In this document: piece by piece, positions 5,215-20,446 of the stretch
How the letters are laid out: the number at the start of each line of letters is the position of its first letter
Position numbering within the stretch: position 1 is the first letter of the stretch
NCBI GenBank assembly: GCA_017557405.1
Contig: JAFYYV010000008.1
Location: forward strand, 1 to 54,719
DNA: 54,719 nucleotides
Direction of reading: 5' to 3'
From: Prevotella sp.
GTDB taxonomy: Bacteria > Bacteroidota > Bacteroidia > Bacteroidales > Bacteroidaceae
The notes under the pieces: model-generated
Database searches by the model: none
Told to the model about the DNA's origin: nothing
Seen by the model: the letters and a program-made list of their open reading frames with translations, nothing else
Position numbers and translations under genes: made by a program

Positions 5215-6402
5215 ATGAAGAAGTGGCTGATGTCGATAGGGATGTTCTTGGCGTGTTGCATCGCCTTCATCTCGTGCGATGATGATAGTGTTGAGGTTGA
5301 CCAACTGACCCAGCAAACCATCATCATGTTCTGCCCGTGGAGTGGAGACATGATGCACGACATCATTCAAGTCAACATCGATAGCATCGAATCGGGCATC
5401 AGGAAGAAGAAAGGTCTTGGAAAGACGCGCCTGCTGGTGTTCTTCAGCGAAAACTCACACTCGGCAAGACTCTTCGAGATTACCTACAAGAAGAATACCT
5501 TCGAGCAGACAATCATCGAACAATACTCCGACAATTCGTACACAACCGCCCAGGGCATCTGCAACATCATCAAGAAAGCCAAGGAAGTGGCTCCCGCTTT
5601 GAACTACGCCATGATTATCGGCGGACATGGATGCGGATGGACAGAGGCGAAGGATTGGGAGGATTATCCCTACCGAGTGAGGAGGCGCAGAGCTATTGAT
5701 GATGACTTGGAAACGCGCTTCTTTGGTTCGGTTGACGACAAGAAATACGCCATCGAGGTGGAGGAATTGGCAAAAGGAATCGCCGACTCGGAAACGAAGA
5801 TGCAATTCATCCTCTTCGACGATTGCTACATGGCGAACGTGGAGGTGGCTTATTCGCTCAGAAACGTCACAAACTACTTGGTGGCTTCCACGAGCGAGGT
5901 GCTTGCCATTGGAATGCCCTACTCCACCATGTGGGCTTCGCTGGCTTCGGGCACACCCAACTATTCGAATATGGTGAGCAGCTTCAAGACGTTCTATAGC
6001 AACTATCAGGCGCCGTATGGCACTCTGTCGGCCATCGATTGCCGCAAGGTGGAGGCTTTGGCGAACGTGATGAAGCAAATCAACGCCCGATACACGTTTG
6101 ACGAGGAAGAGCTCGACAACCTCCAACCACTTGACGGATTGGTGCCCACGCTGTTTTACGACATGGGCGACTATGTGAAGAAGCTGTGTCCCGATCCCAA
6201 TCTCTACACGCAGTTCAAGACGAACTTGACGGAGGTTGTAAAGAATACGGCGAACACTGATTCCATCTATTCGTTCATCTATGGTGTCCGCGTTTTCAAG
6301 AAACTCGAGACCTACTCTGGATTGACCATCTCCGACCCCAGCCTGCATAGTGTGGCGCTCAAAGGGAAAGAAAAGACGGGATGGTGGAAGGCAACACACT
6401 AA
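5215..6402 (+). CDS. Clostripain-like (C11) cysteine protease, lipoprotein
   Basis: This 395-residue protein has a lipoprotein signal peptide (MKKWLMSIGMFLACCIAF, then ISC-DDD), so it is probably exported and lipid-anchored. The clostripain/C11 catalytic pair is visible: His138 in IGGHGCGW and Cys204 in ILFDDCYMANVEVAY. Family members cut after basic residues, usually Arg. The stretch RVRRRRAI at about 158-165, between the two catalytic residues, is where some C11 enzymes process themselves; that reading is inference. It starts 14 bp after valS, so it may share its transcript, and a second secreted protease follows 70 bp later. Confidence 0.87.
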   Translation: MKKWLMSIGMFLACCIAFISCDDDSVEVDQLTQQTIIMFCPWSGDMMHDIIQVNIDSIESGIRKKKGLGKTRLLVFFSENSHSARLFEITYKKNTFEQTIIEQYSDNSYTTAQGICNIIKKAKEVAPALNYAMIIGGHGCGWTEAKDWEDYPYRVRRRRAIDDDLETRFFGSVDDKKYAIEVEELAKGIADSETKMQFILFDDCYMANVEVAYSLRNVTNYLVASTSEVLAIGMPYSTMWASLASGTPNYSNMVSSFKTFYSNYQAPYGTLSAIDCRKVEALANVMKQINARYTFDEEELDNLQPLDGLVPTLFYDMGDYVKKLCPDPNLYTQFKTNLTEVVKNTANTDSIYSFIYGVRVFKKLETYSGLTISDPSLHSVALKGKEKTGWWKATH

Positions 6403-6403
6403 T

Positions 6404-6447
6404 TTACGATTGGACGATTTAAGATTTACAATTGGACGATTTAAGAT
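6404..6447 (+). repeat. 22-bp tandem duplication
   Basis: Two adjacent copies (6404-6425 and 6426-6447) share ATTGGACGATTTAAGAT and differ at one position. They fill most of the gap between the two protease genes. This repeat is unrelated in sequence to the GTCAAAG minisatellite found elsewhere in the window. Confidence 0.85.
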
Positions 6448-6472
6448 TGACACCAACAAGAAATTCATCAAT

Positions 6473-8287
6473 ATGAGAAAACTATTATTGGCAAGCTTTA
6501 TGATGTGTATCGCCATTTGCGCAAATGCCGCAAAAGCATACCCATTCCCAGTCACAATCACGCAGAGCGATGGCAGCCAACTGACCATCAAACTGAATGG
6601 TGATGAAGACATTCATTGGACAACAACCACCGATGGTGTGATTCTTGTTCGCGAGGGTCGCGATTATTTCGTGGCCGACATCGACAAGGAGGGTAATCTG
6701 AAGGCTACCACCCAACTGGCGCACAACGAGGGTGAACGTACGCCATTGGAGAAGCTTTTGATTGAAAAGCAAGACCGCGCCGTCTTCCTCGATTCTGCCA
6801 AGCGAATCATGGAGAAGTCGGCAAGGAGAAGAATCCCCATTTCAGGCAACACCGACAAGCATTATTTCCCACATCACGGCACGCCCAAAGCACTCGTTAT
6901 TTTGGTGGAGTTCGCCGATTCAACGTTCAGCCTCTACGAACCCGAAAGGGCTTTCAACTATTATCTGAACGGTGTTGGTAAATGCGATACCATTCACAAC
7001 AGAGAAGATGTGCTTCCTTACAGCGTGAAAGAGTATTTTAGATTGATGAGCAATGGCGATTTTCAACCCGAGTTCGACATCTATGGGCCTGTGAGATTGA
7101 GCGGGAAGACGGGGGCTTACAAGAACGCACGTTCAACATTGGTGAAGGAAGCTTGTCAGGCTATGGATGATGTCATCGATTTCACAAACTATGACAGCGA
7201 TAACGATGGCTATATCGACCTCGTGTACGTTATCTATGCGGGTTATTCTGCAAGCATCACAGGCAACGCAGACGACTGTATCTGGCCTGCTTCGGGCGAG
7301 AACAATCTAGGAACATTCGATGGAAAAATAGCCTATCGATGGGGTGTGAACAACGAGCTTAACGGCTATCCTGGTGCCTTCTCGTCTAGACCCTACAAGC
7401 GCATTAATGGACAAGGCCTCTTCTTGCACGAGTTCTCTCACACCCTCGGCCTCCCCGACTTCTATCCCACCGTATCGGATTCTCAAGTGGACAACCAAGG
7501 AATGGAGTTCTGGGACCTCATGGATGGTGGTGAATATACTGCCAACGGCTATAGGCCTACTGCCTACACTGGATGGGAAAGAGAGGCTATGGGATGGTTG
7601 AAAGTGGATACGCTCGACGAAGCGCAGACAAATATTGAACTCTCCGCTCTCGATTTGGGTGGCAAGAGCTATCGTGTTCCGAACCTCAATGACAACACAG
7701 GCAGGGAGTATTTCATGATTGAGAACCATGCCATTTATATAAGATATAGTGATTATTTATATGATTTGCCAACACAAGGTTTGATGGTATACCACGTGAA
7801 CTACCCCAAAGCCGAAATCAACTCGAGCGATCGTCCCAACAATACGAAGGGTGCACCTGCAATGACGGTGATTCCTGCCGATGGCAACCTTCTCGCTTCG
7901 TATGTGATTGGAAAGAAAGACAACCCCGCCACTGGTAAGAAATATACGCAAACCGATTACTATAACGACCTTGCTGGCGACATGTTCCCCTACAAAGGTG
8001 TCTCTTCGTTCGACTGCAATTCCAACCTTCCGAATAACAACTGGTTCAAGGGTGAAGACAAAGCTATCAAGTTCGCCCTCACGAACATCAGTTATGATAC
8101 CGAAACAAGAATTGCCACCTTCGATTTCATTCCCGATGTAACCCTCGGCATTGAAATGGCTAACTTCGCCACCCAACTCCCATCTTCGTCAACCATCTAC
8201 ACCATCGATGGTCGCGTGGTTCTCACTGGCTCACCTCTACCGAAGGGCATCTACATCCAAAACAACAAGAAGTTTGTAGTGAAGTAA
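6473..8287 (+). CDS. Secreted M6 family metalloprotease
   Basis: The protein has 604 residues when started at MRKLLLASFMMCIAICANA, a clear signal peptide; the longer open frame from 6350 would put 41 charged residues before it and overlap the previous gene. The zinc site HEFSHTLGLPD starts at residue 319 and is the M6 (immune inhibitor A-like) form HExxHxxGxPD. A Ca-site-like DSDNDGYID lies at about 240. The C-terminal 40 residues (IYTIDGRVV, then PLPKGIYI and a basic end) look like a type A sorting domain of the type IX secretion system. It probably acts outside the cell or on its surface. A strong terminator follows directly. Confidence 0.9.
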   Translation: MRKLLLASFMMCIAICANAAKAYPFPVTITQSDGSQLTIKLNGDEDIHWTTTTDGVILVREGRDYFVADIDKEGNLKATTQLAHNEGERTPLEKLLIEKQDRAVFLDSAKRIMEKSARRRIPISGNTDKHYFPHHGTPKALVILVEFADSTFSLYEPERAFNYYLNGVGKCDTIHNREDVLPYSVKEYFRLMSNGDFQPEFDIYGPVRLSGKTGAYKNARSTLVKEACQAMDDVIDFTNYDSDNDGYIDLVYVIYAGYSASITGNADDCIWPASGENNLGTFDGKIAYRWGVNNELNGYPGAFSSRPYKRINGQGLFLHEFSHTLGLPDFYPTVSDSQVDNQGMEFWDLMDGGEYTANGYRPTAYTGWEREAMGWLKVDTLDEAQTNIELSALDLGGKSYRVPNLNDNTGREYFMIENHAIYIRYSDYLYDLPTQGLMVYHVNYPKAEINSSDRPNNTKGAPAMTVIPADGNLLASYVIGKKDNPATGKKYTQTDYYNDLAGDMFPYKGVSSFDCNSNLPNNNWFKGEDKAIKFALTNISYDTETRIATFDFIPDVTLGIEMANFATQLPSSSTIYTIDGRVVLTGSPLPKGIYIQNNKKFVVK

Positions 8288-8936: not shown

Positions 8937-9022
8937 TTAAATATGTTTTTTCCTTTCCTATATTTATATACGAAAAGAAGATGGTTATTTAGGATTAAAA
9001 GCGTCTTTGGTGTGCCATAACT

Positions 9023-9066
9023 ATGCACATCAATATAAAAAAGAAATAAACTTCATAAGTGTGCAT
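9023..9066. promoter_or_regulatory. Inverted repeat in the divergent control region
   Basis: ATGCACA (9023-9029) and TGTGCAT (9060-9066) form perfect 7-bp arms 30 bp apart, immediately upstream of the -7 box of the WYL gene and facing the DnaE-like gene. The placement suits an operator for the WYL regulator, but that is inference. Confidence 0.35.
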
Positions 9067-9087
9067 TGTTTTTTCATACATAATTAT

Positions 9088-9114: not shown

Positions 9115-10035
9115 ATGGTAAGTAAAACTATCAATCGATACATTTGGCTTCTGAATATTCTCTTGCAGAAGAAGAAACTAACCTTCGAGGAAATAAGTGA
9201 TCTTTGGAGGGATTGTTATTTGGGGGATGGCACCCCTATTCCACTTCGTACATTCCACCAACACCGCAAAGCAGTTGAAGAATTGTTCGGAGTAAAAATC
9301 AAGTGTAATCCGTCTGACGGCTATCATTATTACATTGACAACCCTCAGACAATGCGAAATGACAGAACTCGTCAATGGCTGCTCAACTCCTTCTCTCTGT
9401 CAAACATGATTATTGCTGGCCACAATATGAATGGTAGAATCTTGTTTGAGAATATTCCTGCTGGCACAGAGTATATTCAACCAGTTATTGAAGCCATGCA
9501 ACAGAACAAGGTATTAAAGATAGACTATCAACCATTTGGTGGTCATCTTGATACCTTCCATATGGAGCCATACGCAATGAAGGTTTATCATCAACGTTGG
9601 TACATTATTGGAAAACTTAAGGAACAAAAATCTATCCGTCATCTTGCGTTAGATAGAATAATCGAACTCCAGCAGACAGACAATTCATTTATGATGCCAA
9701 AGAGTTTCAATGCTGACAAGTACTACGCAAACACAATTGGCATCTATGTGAATGATAAATTGAAACCACAAAAGGTTCGCATCCGTGTCTATGGCAAGCA
9801 AGTTGAATATCTTCGCACACTCCCCTTGCATCGCTCTCAAGAAGAGGTACTCACCAAGCACGAACAGTTCAGCGAGTTTCAATATAAAGTCTGTCTCACA
9901 CCAGAACTCTCTACCCAACTGCTTTCTATGGGCGAAAGCGTCGAGGTCTTAGAGCCTCAAGAGTTGAGAAAGGAAATAAAGAAGAGAATAGAGGATTGTT
10001 TTACTAAATATAATCGCAATTATGATGGAAAATAA
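9115..10035 (+). CDS. WYL-domain transcriptional regulator
   Basis: This 306-residue protein has an N-terminal winged-helix part (about 1-80, with RTFHQHRKAVEELFGVKI resembling a DeoR-type recognition segment). A WYL domain covers about 115-200, with W162-Y-I and a downstream basic RHLALDRI block, the ligand-binding surface of the family. A C-terminal extension (about 210-300) resembles the WCX module. WYL proteins often control phage-defence genes and may sense nucleic acids. Its stop overlaps the next start by 14 bp, so the nuclease-like gene that follows is translationally coupled. It probably autoregulates through the upstream inverted repeat. Confidence 0.85.
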   Translation: MVSKTINRYIWLLNILLQKKKLTFEEISDLWRDCYLGDGTPIPLRTFHQHRKAVEELFGVKIKCNPSDGYHYYIDNPQTMRNDRTRQWLLNSFSLSNMIIAGHNMNGRILFENIPAGTEYIQPVIEAMQQNKVLKIDYQPFGGHLDTFHMEPYAMKVYHQRWYIIGKLKEQKSIRHLALDRIIELQQTDNSFMMPKSFNADKYYANTIGIYVNDKLKPQKVRIRVYGKQVEYLRTLPLHRSQEEVLTKHEQFSEFQYKVCLTPELSTQLLSMGESVEVLEPQELRKEIKKRIEDCFTKYNRNYDGK

Positions 10036-10987
10036 TATCAAAAAAACTCTTGAATTATTGAATAATGATTTGGAGTGGGAAGAAAGGTATGCAAAGTATA
10101 TCACATACCTAGAAGGCAAACAATCAAAGGGGTTCAAAAAGCCCGAAGGTCTATCTGTATACAGCTCTATTAGCAAGTATAAAGGTTCTACATATGATTT
10201 GCGTTATGACGGGCAGAGCGTTGGACTTGTAGTATCAAGACAAGATAAAATCAGTTTACGCCCACAAAAAGAAGCAAATCTAAAGTATTTTAATGATAGC
10301 TTTATAAAGGACAAGGAGGAAGTTGATTGGCATAGCAAAGAAGCTACAGAATTCAGGAGATACTTTAGAGACCATGCTAAGAATTCTTCAAAATTCAACC
10401 TTAAGAGTTCAGAGCACAGGGTAGAAAATCGTTTGCTAAGGGAATTTGCGAAAAAGACTAGGGCAGAAAACAAATCATTAACCAACATACAGCCAATAAC
10501 GCTAAACGGTTGTTTCTTCCAATTGCCAACTCCACTGAAAGCTAGTAATCATGCTCCTTCATATGCCAAGCAATATGGAGGAGGCATAGACATTTTATCA
10601 AGAATTAAAATTAATGGTAAGTCAAGAATATGTGTAATGGAAGTAAAAGATGAGAATAAAGACTCTGAAAGTCAAGCTCAAGCTATGGAGCAAGCACTCA
10701 CATACGCTACTTTCATTGCTACTTTACTTAAGAGCAAATCTGGGCAAGAATGGTGGGATTTCTTTATGGGACGGGGTTCTAAAACAAGAAAGATGTCAAC
10801 ACTCCTTGACATAGACGTTGTAACCATTATGCCAAAAGGCAATTCAGAAGAATTTGCAGACAAACAAATACGCTTTCCCAATTTGGCTACTTTTCATTGT
10901 CACTCTTTATACTATGACGATAGTGTTTTTAATAAAGGATTGGGAGAATTTAAATTCTCTGGTAGTTTCCTTGAACATTGGAAATAG
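10022..10987 (+). CDS. Putative PD-(D/E)XK nuclease-like protein
   Basis: I do not recognise a named family for this 321-residue protein. Residues 186-209 read GGGID190ILSRIKI, then CVME207VK209DEN: an Asp on a strand, about 17 residues, then E-x-K, the active-site pattern of the PD-(D/E)XK nuclease fold. A helix with AMEQALTYATFI follows, as expected. The N-terminal 150 residues are rich in Lys, Arg and Ser, with no recognisable motif, and could bind DNA. It overlaps the WYL gene by 14 bp and is followed by a second nuclease-like gene, which suggests a restriction or phage-defence role. Alternatives are a DUF-type nuclease of a mobile element or a DNA repair enzyme. Confidence 0.55.
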   Translation: MMENNIKKTLELLNNDLEWEERYAKYITYLEGKQSKGFKKPEGLSVYSSISKYKGSTYDLRYDGQSVGLVVSRQDKISLRPQKEANLKYFNDSFIKDKEEVDWHSKEATEFRRYFRDHAKNSSKFNLKSSEHRVENRLLREFAKKTRAENKSLTNIQPITLNGCFFQLPTPLKASNHAPSYAKQYGGGIDILSRIKINGKSRICVMEVKDENKDSESQAQAMEQALTYATFIATLLKSKSGQEWWDFFMGRGSKTRKMSTLLDIDVVTIMPKGNSEEFADKQIRFPNLATFHCHSLYYDDSVFNKGLGEFKFSGSFLEHWK

Positions 10988-11106
10988 TTGATATCAACAA
11001 AAAACCAGTTACCTCTGCATCCTTTTTGCACACCATTGTAGGATTTATATTCAAAATAGCAGTTTTCTTTCGTATAATATATAGAATGACTTAATAGATT
11101 TAGCAT

Positions 11107-12096
11107 ATGACATACGAGGTAAAACAACGAAAGCGGCAAGAGTTATTCCGCAAGAGTATAACAAGCAAAGGCTTTAAATATATTCTTGATGATAGCGAAA
11201 GGGATAGGAATCTATACAACTGGCAAGACAAAGACTCTGTACGGAGGGTCAAAGACTATTTCAAGGGAAATAAGATAAAATGGTGGAACTATTATTTTGA
11301 TGCGCCAGAAGGTCAGAAACCAGATGGGGTGAATATGACCCGTCATCTTGTGTCATCGCAGATAGCTTGTATCAATCACCTTTTCTTTATCAAACATGAT
11401 AAGGAAGCTGTGCTGTCAATTATCAATGGTATCAAAAATATGCCTGCAAGAATCAAGGATGTTATGAATATTCCATGCGATAAAGGTATAGATAATTATA
11501 TTGCTTTCGAAGTGGTTCCAAGTAAGGATTATCTTCACGAAAAAGACCTAAAACGCGGTGAGTTTTGTACATCAGTTGATGCCTTTATATATGCCCTTGA
11601 CGAGAACAACGAGCGTTGGCTCATCCCTATAGAGTGGAAATACACAGAGACCTACGAAAGAGATGACATGTCAAATGGCAGAAAGGGCAAAACGCGATTA
11701 TCCCGTTACTGTAACACGGAGGGTAATAACCTAATAGGAAATAGCAATCAACTCAAAAGTCTGCCAGATTATAAACATAGCATTTACTTTCAGGAGCCTT
11801 TCTACCAGTTAATGCGTCAGACACTATGGGCAGAATGTATATGCAGTAATAAAGAAGAGAAGGTCCTGCCAGCTGAGCATTTCGTACATATTCACGTATG
11901 TCCTAAAGAGAATAAGGAATTATTGAATAGATGTTATTCAGAAGTAACAGATAAAAACTCTATGGAAGAAGCTTGGAGAGAAATGTTGTCCGACCAATCA
12001 TTATATCATTTGGTTGATCCTAAGGAATTGATGTCACCAATAGCCAACTCGTATCCAGAACTCTATAATTACTTACAAAGCAGATATTGGCAATGA
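11107..12096 (+). CDS. Second putative PD-(D/E)XK nuclease-like protein
   Basis: This 329-residue protein shows the same kind of core: CTSVD158AFIYALDENNERW followed by IPIE176WK178YTE, i.e. D-x17-E-x-K. The Trp-rich IEWKYTETY and a later YQLMRQTLWAE helix recall the PGN_0703-like restriction endonuclease group, but I cannot confirm that. There is no obvious similarity to the preceding nuclease-like protein outside the motif. It lies 119 bp after that gene, a gap that starts with a GTTGATATCAAC palindrome (10987-10998) and has no good promoter. Its stop codon forms an ATGA overlap with the sigma-like gene that follows. Confidence 0.55.
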   Translation: MTYEVKQRKRQELFRKSITSKGFKYILDDSERDRNLYNWQDKDSVRRVKDYFKGNKIKWWNYYFDAPEGQKPDGVNMTRHLVSSQIACINHLFFIKHDKEAVLSIINGIKNMPARIKDVMNIPCDKGIDNYIAFEVVPSKDYLHEKDLKRGEFCTSVDAFIYALDENNERWLIPIEWKYTETYERDDMSNGRKGKTRLSRYCNTEGNNLIGNSNQLKSLPDYKHSIYFQEPFYQLMRQTLWAECICSNKEEKVLPAEHFVHIHVCPKENKELLNRCYSEVTDKNSMEEAWREMLSDQSLYHLVDPKELMSPIANSYPELYNYLQSRYWQ

Positions 12097-12479
12097 GAAA
12101 ACATATTTTATATATGGAAAAGAAAAAAATCACAATACGCAAGGGGGATGAGACACTCTTTCATTTGATTAAGAATGGTGCCCCATTACCAACAAAGGAG
12201 CAGGAACATGAAATCATTACCCGTGTTCAACAAGGCGATCAAGATGCAGAAGAAGAACTAAAGCAAGCTTACACTCGCTTTGTAGCAAGCACGGCCAGAC
12301 AGTATTTAGATAAAGGTTTGAATACGGACGAACTCCTCAAAGCGGGATTTAAAGGGCTTGTGAATGCAGGGCATAAATATGAAGAATCACTAGGCGTTAA
12401 GTTTCTTCTCTATGCCATTTGCTGGATCAGACAATCTATTCAAGAAGCTTTGAAGGAGTGCGTGAGCGAGCAGAAATAG
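12093..12479 (+). CDS. Sigma-70 region 2-only protein
   Basis: This is a protein of 128 residues if started at the ATG of the ATGA overlap (12093), or 121 from 12114. The part from ITIRKGDETLF onward aligns by eye with RpoD regions 1.2 to 2.4 of Bacteroidota. Blocks include PLPTKEQEHEIITRVQQGD, ELKQAYTRFVASTARQYLDKG, an ELLKAGFKGLVNAG core-binding helix, and KFLLYAICWIRQSIQEALKE matching the RpoD segment YAVWWIRQSILQAL. Regions 3 and 4 are missing; the frame ends cleanly after 2.4. It could bind core RNA polymerase or -10 DNA without recognising -33, either as an auxiliary sigma or as an interfering fragment. It is the last gene of the WYL operon. Confidence 0.75.
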   Translation: MRKHILYMEKKKITIRKGDETLFHLIKNGAPLPTKEQEHEIITRVQQGDQDAEEELKQAYTRFVASTARQYLDKGLNTDELLKAGFKGLVNAGHKYEESLGVKFLLYAICWIRQSIQEALKECVSEQK

Positions 12480-12492: not shown

Positions 12493-13173
12493 TCAATACA
12501 CTCGCTCACCGAAGATGGTGGTGCCTACTCTAACCATTGTGGAGCGGCATTCAACGGCGATGGGATAATCGTGGCTCATGCCCCACGAACGCTCGCAGAA
12601 GGCATCGTCATCAGCGAAATACTGGGCTTTCACCTCATCGAAGAAGTCAGCTGCTGAGAGCATTTCCGAACGAATCTGCTGTTCATCGTCCACGAACGAA
12701 GCCATCATCATCAAGCCACATATCTTCACATTCTTCAACTCACGCCATTCACCCGAAGCCAACAACTCACGGCAAGCATCGAAGGTCAATCCATATTTCG
12801 TCTCCTCCTCAGCGATGTGCAATTCAAGCAAAACGCGCACCACACGATCGTTCTTTGCCGCCTGCTTGTTGATTTCCTGCAACAACTTCAGCGAATCCAC
12901 CGATTCAATCATCGAGATGTAGGGAACGATGTATTTCACCTTGTTCGTCTGCAGATGACCAATGAGATGCCATTCAACATCCTTCGGCATCTGCCCCACT
13001 TTCTGCTGCAGTTCCTGCACGTGGTTCTCACCAAACACACGCTGACCGGCATCGTAGACCTCACGCAGCATCTCCAACGGATGGAACTTGCTGACAGCCA
13101 CGAGTTTCACCGATGCAGGCAGGTCGTTCAGAACCTTTTGCAGATTGCGTGCTATGTCAGGCTTTGTGCTCAT
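12493..13173 (-). CDS. YggS/PLPBP family pyridoxal phosphate homeostasis protein
   Basis: This is a 226-residue protein from MSTKPDIARNLQ; the open frame extends 12 residues further upstream but that start is less typical of the family. VKLVAVSKFHP carries the PLP Lys, and FGENHVQELQQK, WHLIGHLQTNKVKY and MGMSHDYPIAVE-like blocks (here SWGMSHDYPIA) are the PLPBP hallmarks. It folds like the N-terminal barrel of alanine racemase but has no known catalytic activity; it buffers free PLP and affects amino-acid pools. The start overlaps the end of the DUF4494 gene by 17 bp, so the two form one unit. Confidence 0.92.
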   Translation of the reverse strand: MSTKPDIARNLQKVLNDLPASVKLVAVSKFHPLEMLREVYDAGQRVFGENHVQELQQKVGQMPKDVEWHLIGHLQTNKVKYIVPYISMIESVDSLKLLQEINKQAAKNDRVVRVLLELHIAEEETKYGLTFDACRELLASGEWRELKNVKICGLMMMASFVDDEQQIRSEMLSAADFFDEVKAQYFADDDAFCERSWGMSHDYPIAVECRSTMVRVGTTIFGERVY

Positions 13174-13609
13174 AGACGTCCATGATTTTCGTCTCCATGA
13201 TGTTGGCAATCACATAGTCAATCATCGTTCCGCTCATCACCTCCTCAATGTTCTTCACCGCTCCGTTGAACGTAGAAGCCTGCACCAGATAGGTCACCGA
13301 TGTGCGTTTCTCCTTTTCCGTCTTCTCGTCTATCGTGATGAACGACAGGCGCGCCTTGTACCAACGGTCGTCTGCGGCATTCTCACTGAAGAAAACCTCA
13401 CCATAGGCGGCAGGATTAATGTTCTTCACCTCGAACTCACCGCTCACGTAGGCCGTCATCTCCTTGGTGATGGACTCCTCAGCCTCTCCGAAACTCAAGG
13501 CGTCAACCACGTAGAGTTCGTTCACCTTCTTCGTCATACCGTCCTCCATCTGGCGTTCATAGCGCACCGTGCATTCAAACCAATTCGCTGTTCTGCTTTT
13601 CATTGTCAT
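13157..13609 (-). CDS. DUF4494 domain-containing protein
   Basis: This 150-residue protein belongs to a family restricted, as far as I know, to Bacteroidota. NWFECTVRYERQMEDG at the start, VNELYVVDALSFGEAE in the middle and VTYLVQASTFNGAVKNIEEVM are typical. There is no signal peptide or membrane segment. The function is unknown. The start may be the second Met at 13603. It is the first gene of the pair with yggS, and a -7 box lies about 40 bp upstream. Confidence 0.82.
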   Translation of the reverse strand: MTMKSRTANWFECTVRYERQMEDGMTKKVNELYVVDALSFGEAEESITKEMTAYVSGEFEVKNINPAAYGEVFFSENAADDRWYKARLSFITIDEKTEKEKRTSVTYLVQASTFNGAVKNIEEVMSGTMIDYVIANIMETKIMDVYEHKA

Positions 13610-17106: not shown

Positions 17107-18777
17107 ATGAAAGAAATACCCAGCTTTAATTCATATATTGAAAAGAGCATTAAAGACAATTGGGAAAAAGACGCACTAACCGACTATAAAGGCGCCACCC
17201 TGCAATATCACGATGTGGCTCGCATTATAGAAAAACTGCACATTGTCTTCGCAGAGATTGGTGTGCAACGAGGTGACAAGATTGCCATGTGCGGACGTAA
17301 CAGTTCACACTGGGCTGTGGCTTATTTGGCCACGCTGACCTACGGTGCTGTTGCGGTTCCTATTCTTCACGAATTCACTCCTGAGCAAGTTCACAACATT
17401 GTGAACCATTCCGAAGCCAAACTGTTGTTTGTGGGCGATGTGGTAGCCCCCACGATTGACGAGAACGCCATGCCCAACTTGGAAGGCATTGTCAATCTGC
17501 CCGACTTCTCCATCCGTTTGGCTCGACTGGAAAAACTTACATATGCGCGTGAGCATCTTAATGAACTCTACGGAAAGAAATACCCGAAGTATTTCCGCAA
17601 AGAGCACGTGCACTATTACGAGGACAAGGCCGACGACTTGGCAATGATCAACTACACAAGTGGTACGACCGGATTCTCGAAGGGTGTGATGCTCCCCTAT
17701 CGCGCTTTGTGGGGAAACCTCGACTTCTGTCTGACCCGTCTGGGTGACAAGGTGAAGCCAGGAACAAACCTCGTAAGCATTCTCCCGATGGCCCACATGT
17801 ATGGTTTGGCCATCGAAATGATATTCCCCTTCTGCCAAGGTCTTCACATCTTCTTCCTCACTCGACTGCCGAGCCCATCGCTCATCGCACAAGCTTTTGC
17901 CGACACCAAGCCATCTCTCATTGTGGCTGTGCCGCTGGTGATTGAGAAGATTGTGAGGAAGCGCGTATTCCCGAAGATTCAGAACAACCTCATGAAGCTG
18001 CTGCTCAACATGCCCGTAGTGAACAAGAAGGTGAAGCAGAAGATTTGCGAGGAGGTCTACAAGGCCTTCGGTGGCAACGCCTACGAGGTGATTGTGGGTG
18101 GAGCCGCGCTGAACCAAGAGGTGGAGGCTTTCATGAAAAGCATCGATTTCCCTATCACGGTGGGCTATGGCGCCACAGAATGCGCACCGCTCATCAGCTA
18201 TTGCGACTACTTTGACTTCGTGCCACGCTCGTGCGGAAAGGCCGTTGACCACATGGAGGTGAAAATCGACAGTGCCGACCCACTACGCATTCCCGGTGAG
18301 ATTCTCGCACGTGGAACGAACGTGATGTTGGGCTACTACAAGAACGAAGAGGAGACCGCCAAAGCGCTCGATGCCGAAGGATGGTACCACACGGGCGATT
18401 TGGGATTGATGGACGCCGAGGGCAATATCTTCATCAAAGGACGCTCGAAGAACATGCTGCTGGGCGCCAACGGTCAGAATGTGTATCCCGAGGAGATAGA
18501 AGACAAACTGAGCTCGATGGCGATGGTCAGCGAGTGTATTGTCGTTCAGAATGGAGACACGCTGATAGGTCTTGTCTATCCCGATCTTGAGGAGGCTCAA
18601 TCCATGCACTTCACCCACGAAGACCTCGAGGGAATCATGGAGCAGAACCGCCAAGAACTGAACGCACAACTACCACAGTTCAGCAAACTGTCGGCCATCG
18701 TGCTGAAAGATGAGGAGTTCGAGAAGACCCCGAAGAAGAGCATCAAGCGATATTTGTATCAGAATATAACAAAATAA
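17107..18777 (+). CDS. AMP-dependent acyl-CoA ligase (long-chain fatty acid type), copy 1
   Basis: This 556-residue ANL-superfamily adenylating enzyme activates a carboxylic acid, most likely a fatty acid, with ATP and CoA. The A3 phosphate-binding motif is NYTSGTTGFSKGVMLPYRAL (about 181-200), then VGYGATECAPLI (A5), GWYHTGDLG (A7), KGRSKNMLLGANGQNVYPEEIE (A8 hinge region) and TPKKSIKRYLY with the catalytic Lys near the end (A10). Soluble or loosely membrane-bound. It ends 4 bp before a close paralogue, clearly a tandem duplication. The substrate range cannot be read from sequence. Confidence 0.9.
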   Translation: MKEIPSFNSYIEKSIKDNWEKDALTDYKGATLQYHDVARIIEKLHIVFAEIGVQRGDKIAMCGRNSSHWAVAYLATLTYGAVAVPILHEFTPEQVHNIVNHSEAKLLFVGDVVAPTIDENAMPNLEGIVNLPDFSIRLARLEKLTYAREHLNELYGKKYPKYFRKEHVHYYEDKADDLAMINYTSGTTGFSKGVMLPYRALWGNLDFCLTRLGDKVKPGTNLVSILPMAHMYGLAIEMIFPFCQGLHIFFLTRLPSPSLIAQAFADTKPSLIVAVPLVIEKIVRKRVFPKIQNNLMKLLLNMPVVNKKVKQKICEEVYKAFGGNAYEVIVGGAALNQEVEAFMKSIDFPITVGYGATECAPLISYCDYFDFVPRSCGKAVDHMEVKIDSADPLRIPGEILARGTNVMLGYYKNEEETAKALDAEGWYHTGDLGLMDAEGNIFIKGRSKNMLLGANGQNVYPEEIEDKLSSMAMVSECIVVQNGDTLIGLVYPDLEEAQSMHFTHEDLEGIMEQNRQELNAQLPQFSKLSAIVLKDEEFEKTPKKSIKRYLYQNITK

Positions 18778-18781
18778 CCAT

Positions 18782-20446
18782 ATGGAGTCTATACCAAGCT
18801 TTAACGCGTTGATTGAGAAAAGCATCATCGACCATTGGAATCTTGATGCTTTGACCGATTACAAAGGTGCGACCTTGCAATACCATGACGTGGCACGGAA
18901 GATTGAAAAGCTGCACATCATGTTCGAGAACAGCGGTGTGGTAAAGGGTGACAAAATAGCGCTCTGCGGCCGAAATAGTGCTTGCTGGGCGGTAGCTTTT
19001 CTGGCCACGCTGACGTATGGAGCCGTGGCGGTGCCTATTCTTCACGAGTTCACCGCCGACCAGATTCATAACATCGTGAACCACTCGGACGCGAAGATAT
19101 TGTTCGTGGGCGATGTGGTAGCAACGGTTATTGACGCTACAAAGATGCCTGGTCTTGAGGGCATCATCTACATCCCCGACTACTCGTTGGTAGTGTCGCG
19201 CACCGATAAGTTGACCTATGCTCGCGAGCATCTGAACGAGATGTTCGGCAGGAAATACCCCAAATATTTCCGCAAGGAGCACGTGTCGTACTACCACGAG
19301 GAAGACCCCAACCAGTTGGCGCTCATCAACTACACCAGTGGCACGACCGGCTTCTCGAAGGGTGTGATGATTCCATATCGCGCATTGTGGAGCAACTTCG
19401 ATTTCGCTTGCAAAGCAATGGGAGCGAACCTGAAAGGCGACAACATCATCAGCATCCTGCCGCTCGCCCACATGTATGGAATGGCTTTCGAGTTCACTTT
19501 CGAATTCCTCACGGGTAAGCACATCTTCTTCCTCACTCGAGTGCCGAGCCCCGCCATCATCGCACAGGCGTTTGCCGACATCAAGCCCACGGTCATCATT
19601 GCCGTGCCGCTCATCATCGAGAAGATCATCAAGAAGAAGGTGTTCCCAAGAATTCAGACCAACAGCATCCAAATTCTCCGCCAGATGCCTGTCATCAACA
19701 GGAGGGTGAACGATCGCATACGCGAACAAGTGGTGAACGCCTTCGGTGGCAACTTCTACGAGGTCATTATCGGAGGAGCCGCCTTCAACCAGGATGTGGA
19801 AAAGTTCCTCAAGCAAATCAACTTCCCATACACCGTGGGATATGGAGCCACTGAGTGCGCCCCCATCATCTGCTATGCCCCATGGGAGGAGTTCGTGGTA
19901 GGCTCGTGCGGAAAGGCTGTCACTCACATGGAAGTGAAGATTGCAAGCCCCGACCCAGCAAACATTCCAGGCGAGATTCTCGCACGTGGTCTCAATGTGA
20001 TGTTGGGCTACTACAAGAACGAGGAGGCAACCGCCGAAACCATCGACAAAGATGGCTGGTACCACACGGGCGATTTGGGATTGATGGACGCCTATGGCAA
20101 TGTTTTCATCAAGGGACGCTCGAAGAACATGCTGCTCAGCTCGAATGGTCAGAACATCTACCCCGAGGAGATCGAGGACAAACTCAACTCAATGCAGCTA
20201 GTGGTGGAGAGTGTGGTCATTCAGAAGGAAGACAAGCTTGTCGGCCTTGTATTCCCCGACTTCGATGAAGCGAAGAACTTGGGATTCAACCGCGAAGATT
20301 TGGTGAATCTCATGGAGCAGAACCGCCAGGAACTGAACAAGGTTCTGCCTCCCTACTGCAAGTTGGCTGCCATCAAGATTCATGACGAGGAGTTCGCCAA
20401 GACGCCGAAGAAGAGCATCAAGCGCTATCTGTATCAGAACGAATAA
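18782..20446 (+). CDS. AMP-dependent acyl-CoA ligase (long-chain fatty acid type), copy 2
   Basis: This 554-residue protein is the paralogue of the preceding gene. The two match along their whole length, starting with IPSFNxxIEKSI and ALTDYKGATLQYHDVARxIEKLHI, and all ANL motifs are kept (NYTSGTTGFSKGVMIPYRA, VGYGATECAPII, GWYHTGDLG, TPKKSIKRYLY). Differences cluster in the middle (about 210-330), which forms the acyl-binding pocket in this superfamily. The two copies may therefore prefer different chain lengths; that is inference. They share one transcript that ends at the hairpin after this gene. Confidence 0.9.
   Translation: MESIPSFNALIEKSIIDHWNLDALTDYKGATLQYHDVARKIEKLHIMFENSGVVKGDKIALCGRNSACWAVAFLATLTYGAVAVPILHEFTADQIHNIVNHSDAKILFVGDVVATVIDATKMPGLEGIIYIPDYSLVVSRTDKLTYAREHLNEMFGRKYPKYFRKEHVSYYHEEDPNQLALINYTSGTTGFSKGVMIPYRALWSNFDFACKAMGANLKGDNIISILPLAHMYGMAFEFTFEFLTGKHIFFLTRVPSPAIIAQAFADIKPTVIIAVPLIIEKIIKKKVFPRIQTNSIQILRQMPVINRRVNDRIREQVVNAFGGNFYEVIIGGAAFNQDVEKFLKQINFPYTVGYGATECAPIICYAPWEEFVVGSCGKAVTHMEVKIASPDPANIPGEILARGLNVMLGYYKNEEATAETIDKDGWYHTGDLGLMDAYGNVFIKGRSKNMLLSSNGQNIYPEEIEDKLNSMQLVVESVVIQKEDKLVGLVFPDFDEAKNLGFNREDLVNLMEQNRQELNKVLPPYCKLAAIKIHDEEFAKTPKKSIKRYLYQNE

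Follow-up and report, generated by a model that had tools for sequence, protein, structure and literature searches.

A putative WYL-controlled island of nucleases and fragments of DnaE and sigma-70 in a Prevotella genome

Conflict systems centred on ADP-ribosylglycohydrolase (ARG) and equipped with a rapidly evolving restriction endonuclease (REase) combine a WYL switch, an REase-fold effector and phosphatases (Viruses 2022, PMC9503650). Here, we analysed a stretch of 54,719 nucleotides from Prevotella sp. (assembly GCA_017557405.1, contig JAFYYV010000008.1, positions 1 to 54,719; hereafter, the window), which contains an AT-rich island encoding a WYL regulator, two PD-(D/E)XK nuclease-like proteins (nuclease 1, N1, and nuclease 2, N2), a truncated sigma-70 protein and a fragment of DnaE, the alpha subunit of DNA polymerase III. 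As in the ARG-centred systems, a WYL regulator as switch is associated with an REase-fold effector, and phosphatases occur in relatives; unlike in those systems, the five island proteins include neither an ADP-ribosylglycohydrolase nor a rhodanese phosphatase, and pieces of DnaE and sigma factor are found instead. Judging by its name, the Pfam family REase-ARP, matched by N2, is probably the REase of PMC9503650.

The MZA anti-phage system resembles the island in its sigma-70-like piece, a domain carried by MzaA. The match of the window's sigma protein to MzaA is partial and below the cut-off (PADLOC, E 4e-11; NCBIfam, E 2e-14, 53 bits versus a cut-off of 800). However, this protein has 128-130 aa against about 700 aa, and the other island proteins match no Mza model in PADLOC, nor do any of the 10 proteins flanking the island. 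WYL-regulated defence loci in general also have an HTH-WYL-WCX regulator heading a nuclease operon, but here pieces of DnaE, sigma, DnaB and GyrA are present, several under common control elements. In plants, NLR receptors with integrated decoys keep a non-functional copy of a pathogen target as bait. The idea of bait is what the two have in common; in the present case, the proteins are separate, prokaryotic and accompanied by nuclease effectors, and no sequence relation is claimed.

In the open-access literature, outside which most subscription papers lie, we found no description of DnaE, DnaB, GyrA or sigma fragments in a nuclease regulon. An earlier reading of the DNA made without database searches (hereafter, the sequence-only reading) had proposed a possible undescribed defence or genome-conflict system: the gene organisation was indeed not found described, whereas defence is inferred, none of the 10 window proteins flanking the island matching a PADLOC model. 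The mechanism is a proposal, and the WYL, REase-ARP and metallo-beta-lactamase-fold (MBL) parts are already known. From the sequence comparisons below, we consider it very probable that the island is a WYL-switched regulon of nucleases and fragments. We further propose, with a probability of roughly 0.4, that it is a WYL-controlled conflict regulon, most likely anti-phage, in which inactive copies of proteins for replication and transcription would mimic the targets of invaders and the nucleases would be the effectors.

Organisation and probable common control of the island

The four same-strand genes of the sequence-only reading, with overlaps of 14 bp (10022-10035) and ATGA (12093-12096), were confirmed, as were the AT-rich composition and the housekeeping flanks. 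The GC content over 9-12 kb is 0.355-0.39, versus 0.47-0.55 for most flanking kilobases; values below 0.42 also occur in a few further kilobases of the window. The island is larger, with a divergent DnaE finger fragment and common control elements that had been missed (Table 1), and the sigma protein is one of several truncated housekeeping proteins. The WYL and sigma region 2 assignments were borne out by Pfam matches above the cut-off. For the sigma gene, the listed open reading frame (ORF) begins at a TTG (12087); the start used here is the ATG at 12093.

Table 1. Genes and putative control elements of the island, with positions in the window.
Feature	Position	Strand	Evidence or location
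DnaE (Pol III alpha) finger-domain fragment, 198 aa	8340-8936	-	Pfam DNA_pol3_finger E 3.1e-24; divergent from WYL gene
Promoter-like TTCGTAT-N6-ATAG	8958-8974	-	upstream of finger-fragment gene
Operator-like dyad TRTGC-N8-TGCAYA	9011-9029	.	75 bp from finger-fragment start, 86 bp from WYL start
Second dyad, one mismatch	9060-9078	.	about 37 bp upstream of WYL start
WYL-WCX transcription regulator, 306 aa	9115-10035	+	Pfam WYL E 5.7e-13, WCX E 7.1e-11
Nuclease 1 (N1), PD-(D/E)XK protein, 321 aa	10022-10987	+	invariant E131, H132, D190, E207, K209
Third dyad, one mismatch	11014-11032	.	75 bp upstream of N2
Promoter-like TTCGTAT-N5-ATAG	11069-11084	+	upstream of N2
Nuclease 2 (N2), REase-ARP PD-(D/E)XK protein, 329 aa	11107-12096	+	Pfam PF22558 E 1.3e-36, PDDEXK_13 E 1.7e-11
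Truncated sigma-70 protein, region 2 only, 128 aa from ATG	12093-12479	+	Sigma70_r2 E 5.4e-10

Both patterns, the dyad and TTCGTAT, were defined with the island sequences in view, so the window counts are not blind. TTCGTAT-N5-7-ATAG gave two matches in the 54.7 kb versus 0.03 expected (0 of 100 shuffles reached 2), both preceding fragment or nuclease genes, namely those of the finger fragment and N2. The exact dyad was found once (9011-9029) versus 0.11 expected, a count reached by 9 of 100 shuffles; with one mismatch allowed, it occupies six positions (10 strand-wise matches versus 3.9 expected; 2 of 100 shuffles reached 10), three of which are in the island (9011, 9060 and 11014).

The same elements recur in related islands, many of which carry a fragment of the DnaE palm domain (loci, genomes and contigs are designated below by L, G and C numbers). 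TTCGTAT-N5-7-ATAG was present in 28 of 240 loci, every one the window or an island locus (several overlap), with sites that include some upstream of palm genes, sigma genes and the GyrA fragment of L172. Among 41 sequences, the dyad precedes palm genes (15 of 31), WYL genes (10 of 29) and complete sigma genes (6 of 13), as well as 1 of 10 finger genes; among 297 unannotated ORFs, it precedes two, both of which lie in islands. It was upstream of none of the 24 MBL, 14 N1 and 16 metallophosphoesterase genes. All seven sigma sites, including the one whose gene is cut by a contig end, lie at a distance of 75-79 bp, and in L173, L176, L177, L181 and L184 the dyad is located 40 bp upstream of WYL. 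The upstream layout of N2 is the same as that of the sigma-fragment genes in other islands. Since the dyad and the TTCGTAT element are common to the finger gene and N2, the divergent DnaE fragment is tied to the nuclease 2-sigma pair. Position and spacing suggest that the WYL protein binds the dyads. Elsewhere in the same genome, dyad sites on C3, C31, C38 and C52 are without a recognisable island gene, and the match on C10 (at 9260) lies outside the second island described below.

The WYL protein matched the CRISPR-associated WYL and Cas3c models of PADLOC. Homologues 62-69% identical to it were present in nine palm-fragment loci, and a tenth contains a 115-aa WYL piece, 73% identical; the ratio of non-synonymous to synonymous substitutions (dN/dS) of WYL pairs was 0.04-0.14.

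Truncated replication and transcription proteins

A palm fragment from one related island was used as query against 301 family genomes. Besides full-length DnaEs, short palm frames (56-217 aa, one of them a remnant) were found in at least 28 genomes; three of these 28 matches carry stops within the aligned stretch. Twenty-five loci were counted, with L171 and L172 (no palm ORF annotated) and L186 (the 56-aa remnant) omitted. Within 5 kb of the palm ORF, we found WYL in 20 of the 25 loci, MBL in 12, sigma in 10, metallophosphoesterase in 6 and a finger fragment in 4; the outer flank of the palm loci (110,775 bp) contained one metallophosphoesterase and no WYL, MBL or sigma gene. The five counted loci without WYL were L027, L164, L170, L175 and L178, of which all except L164 lie no more than about 2.5 kb from the end of a contig. 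Not all palm loci are independent: the palm fragments of L026, L170 and L175 are 99% identical, and L180-L182 and L184 are close kin. The duplicates L049, L056 and L057 were omitted from some alignments.

One frequent layout, of which there are many variants, begins with divergent palm or finger genes; WYL comes next, then the variable nuclease, the sigma fragment and finally the genes for MBL and metallophosphoesterase. The recurrence of WYL together with a nuclease and a sigma fragment is what would be expected from the sequence-only reading, but the exact four-gene set was seen nowhere else. As a conserved unit, this set was rejected: the recurring sets are N1 with MBL, and WYL with a variable nuclease and fragments, often with MBL.

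The palm fragments are mostly about 166 aa long, have lost much of the GRGSAAGS motif and, in 32 of the 33 aligned, are without both aspartates of the host PDIDxDF motif, a pair that we take to be catalytic. The window's finger fragment was aligned to the full-length DnaE that the same genome encodes elsewhere, as a 1246-aa frame on a different contig; of the finger domain, the fragment keeps the beginning and the middle, and the RKAMGKK and NKSHA stretches, presumably involved in substrate binding, are missing. A homologue of the finger fragment (47% identical) is located inside a 288-aa frame of G086. In the finger tree, the window fragment forms a clade with fragments of three genomes (L130, L179 and L183; support 100), the remaining fragments split into separate groups and branches are long. 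A structure model of the finger fragment was discarded (predicted local distance difference test, pLDDT, 41; from a five-sequence alignment).

An alignment with two complete sigma factors from the same genome shows that the window's sigma protein ends shortly after WIRQSI, with regions 3 and 4 missing. Counting the window's, six of the 14 sigma copies stop at region 2; that of L180 is cut by the contig end and that of L181 has an unrelated tail. Fragments of other proteins were also observed: a GyrA piece in L172 and DnaB pieces in L170 (E 2.5e-67) and L175. The Prevotella genome itself has a second island (G000:C10, L131:536-7088), with WYL, an RNase_T exonuclease, PDDEXK_4 and PLD nucleases, an unknown 187-aa protein, and fragments of GyrA/ParC (122 aa), the DnaB C-terminus (218 aa) and DnaE palm-finger (387 aa).

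Sigma region 2 binds RNA polymerase and melted -10 DNA, and the palm and finger of a polymerase bind primed template. The fragments might thus be targeting adaptors, which would still bind nucleic acid or the core enzyme and bring the nucleases to invader forks or transcription bubbles. Every fragment derives from a DNA-handling machine, region 2 of sigma is retained through the WIRQSI stretch in most copies, and binding can dispense with catalytic residues. We nevertheless regard this role as unlikely, given that the palm fragments also lose much of GRGSAAGS and that the domain scan of annotated ORFs, in which N1-MBL fusions were detected (L061 and L093), showed none joining a fragment to a nuclease.

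Among the 12 closest palm pairs, dN/dS was 0.03-0.22 in the nine with a dS of at least 0.1, and 11 of the 12 fall within 0.03-0.52; for sigma, the 12 closest pairs gave 0.13-0.41, and finger pairs gave one value of 0.20, with two saturated. These ratios suggest that the closest palm and sigma pairs are mostly under purifying selection. They bear on whether the locus is just an ordinary operon of restriction-type nucleases, regulated by WYL, that lies close to gene debris. Both WYL and nucleases of the REase type are established components of conflict systems (PMC9503650), the window lacks an MBL partner, and its own fragments are too diverged for a test of constraint. On the other side, fragments recur, are constrained in relatives and have promoters in common, which makes an ordinary operon hardly probable; for the window's own fragments, the debris hypothesis appears weakened.

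Nucleases, their partners and the flanks of the island

The sequence-only reading had assigned both nucleases to the PD-(D/E)XK type, and both assignments stood. In N1, the catalytic-type motif D190/E207/K209 is invariant across 34 homologues. Its structure model (pLDDT 89.9) contains the PD-(D/E)XK restriction-endonuclease core fold, and its best structural alignments are with PD-(D/E)XK enzymes; this call rests on a cluster of such enzymes among the VIA matches and not on a single Z, and Foldseek matches were weak. N1 had no family match in Pfam, PADLOC, NCBIfam or PHROG, and no match up to E 1 among PDB sequences; on these searches, it is an unnamed family. In N2, D158/E176/K178 is invariant among 11 homologues, and the match to PF22558 reached 127.1 bits against a curated cut-off of 27. 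Neither nuclease matched a PADLOC model.

With the window genome counted, N1 was present in 7 and N2 in 13 of the 301 family genomes. The nuclease slot is filled by the N2 family in L174 and L183, with weaker or further REase-ARP matches in islands L030 (L030:2556-3389), L173 (L173:10203-11012) and L183 (L183:9900-10733). L183 holds two N2-type proteins. N2 relatives with an additional N-terminal half (644-677 aa) were observed in L036, L037, L040 and L041.

Among 84,980 species genomes, N1 was found at 50 loci. Some belong to Bacteroidota, others to contigs that carry the labels of several further phyla, and many of them are metagenome bins. An MBL gene lies within 6 kb of N1 in 38 of the 50 loci, and within 300 bp in 32; in one additional locus, the two are fused. 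Fusions were seen in opposite orders: as one protein at L061:7541-9685, and as an MBL protein with an N1 stretch at L093:2392-4032. In Pfam, the MBL proteins correspond to Lactamase_B_2 with an RMMBL tail near its cut-off, and we read them as probably beta-CASP/RNase J-like. No MBL partner was found in the window genome, where the best match was weak (E 1.5e-4). Small sigma proteins and metallophosphoesterase also recur near N1 loci.

Outside Bacteroidales, 83 N1 neighbours of at least 170 aa were scanned, a size below which fragments would escape. PADLOC matched WYL in four of them and AbiE, SoFic and RtcR models in one or two each; Pfam matched DNA_pol3_alpha in two, both from Anaerovibrio, and DnaB_C in one. 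As there was no control set, no defence-island claim is drawn from these neighbours, one of which (L082:12794-14209) is TrkA. In Anaerovibrio G337 and G338, a second PolC copy is located in the N1 neighbourhood (L088:11047-14862 and L086:5475-9277, respectively) and is split in G338. L088 has WYL genes on both sides according to Pfam, and MBL is not annotated there. N1 is thus beside DnaE fragments in Bacteroidales and beside PolC in two related Firmicutes. G337 also encodes an isolated PolC palm-finger fragment of 354 aa, whose catalytic motif is altered (L240:8840-9904); it is not beside N1, and two similar 135-aa genes are nearby.

Carriage of the island by phages or plasmids was not supported, since scans of viral contigs, phages and plasmids confirmed no close relative. 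N1 had no plasmid or phage-record match and no confirmed relative in viral contigs (two alignments scanned). N2 was unmatched in phage records, had no confirmed relative in viral contigs and gave one distant plasmid match (NZ_CP101284.1 1828-2529, Phenylobacterium, 27% identity). The palm fragment weakly matches two unannotated faecal phage records, MT836900.1 and MT839029.1.

By Pfam, the flank genes are housekeeping-like: valyl-tRNA synthetase, C11 and M6 peptidases, Ala_racemase_N, aminotransferase and FtsX. The island lies between the M6 peptidase gene (6350-8287) and the Ala_racemase_N gene (12493-13209), which we take to be yggS-like. When 1.5-kb flanks were compared, an M6-peptidase homologue directly adjoined the Ala_racemase_N gene, without the island, in 4 of 29 relatives (L191, L199, L205 and L213), a pattern in line with insertion of the island, the remaining 25 having other neighbours or being unreadable; the M6 peptidases of the relatives are only 36-44% identical, so paralogy is possible in this comparison. 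Neither a cognate DNA methyltransferase nor an ADP-ribosylglycohydrolase was found by Pfam among the five island and seven flanking proteins; the methyltransferase search did not extend to the rest of the genome. Elsewhere in the window, two adjacent genes (17107-18777 and 18782-20446; 556 and 554 aa) have very similar N-termini, are apparently a tandem duplicate and match no PADLOC model.

Proposed mechanism and significance

In the conflict regulon that we propose, WYL would repress the fragment and nuclease promoters via the dyads and would be released by a ligand made upon infection. The fragments would mimic those host proteins of replication and transcription which an invader attacks or replaces, and would bind the invader factor; this contact, or plain titration, would protect the host and license the nucleases to cleave the DNA of the invader or of the host. 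In relatives, the MBL-fold (RNase J-like) hydrolase and metallophosphoesterase would add nuclease steps, a module for which N2 may stand in within the window copy. Among the proteins concerned, namely replicative polymerase, helicase, gyrase and sigma, are classic targets of factors made by phages and plasmids. The mimic reading is suggested by the choice of precisely these proteins, by genes that are kept despite the loss of catalysis, and by expression that appears switched.

Several observations weigh against it. The window finger is 30% identical to the finger of the host DnaE, whereas 29 family host DnaEs are at least 68% identical among themselves in this region; such identity is lower than would be expected for a faithful decoy. 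The window's finger and sigma are too diverged from their relatives for dN/dS, and three palm pairs with few changes reach 0.43-0.96. The palm fragment of L070 retains the aspartate pair. An annotated DnaE fragment is present in only 10 of the 49 loci with annotated N1, and the second island of the genome is without N1, N2, MBL, dyad or TTCGTAT element. The second PolC of G337 is nearly full length, keeps PDIDLNF and is 79% identical to the other PolC of that genome. When viral contigs were scanned with N1, N2, WYL and the finger fragment, no relative could be confirmed, such single-protein scans reaching close relatives only. Finally, three sigma copies keep region 4 without region 3 (L027, L029 and L183) and three are full length (L030, L085 and L169), although the latter may be ordinary paralogues.

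The divergence from host proteins also argues against a dominant-negative shut-off, in which induced fragments would compete or co-assemble with the polymerase, helicase, gyrase or sigma of host or phage and bring about an abortive growth stop. The targets are essential, expression is predicted to be WYL-switched, and the L170 piece is still close to the DnaB motor; but beside the 30% of the window finger, the DnaB piece of the second island is only 36-44% identical in local stretches and its GyrA piece had no host match at E 1e-3. We consider such a shut-off quite unlikely.

The sigma copies with more than region 2 bear on another explanation, in which the short sigma would serve the TTCGTAT promoters as a functional mini-sigma and the pieces of polymerase would simply ride along with a defence operon made up of WYL and nuclease genes. 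Regions 2 and 4 in three copies, the three full-length ones, and a TTCGTAT element that differs from TAnnTTTG, the promoter box of Bacteroidales, are in line with it. The six copies ending at region 2, the window's included, could not read a -35 box, and promoter and dyad are common to polymerase fragments too; a mini-sigma is thus improbable.

The conflict regulon with mimics, if correct, would represent a new immune or conflict class, in which decoys made of dead DnaE palm or finger, DnaB motor, GyrA and sigma-70 region 2 are combined with interchangeable PD-(D/E)XK and MBL-fold nucleases through a WYL regulon; this classification is tentative. Firmicutes possibly have a PolC-based version. 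To our knowledge, separate decoy genes guarding core machinery are an idea known from plant receptors and from no bacterial system. If the fragments are mimics, bacteria guard their core machinery by separate decoy genes, and the fragments would reveal which host proteins suffer attack and could serve as baits to capture takeover proteins not yet known. Should they prove to be adaptors or poisons, this would still be a new use for polymerase and sigma pieces. The dyad and the promoter-like element together provide a sequence signature for finding further members.

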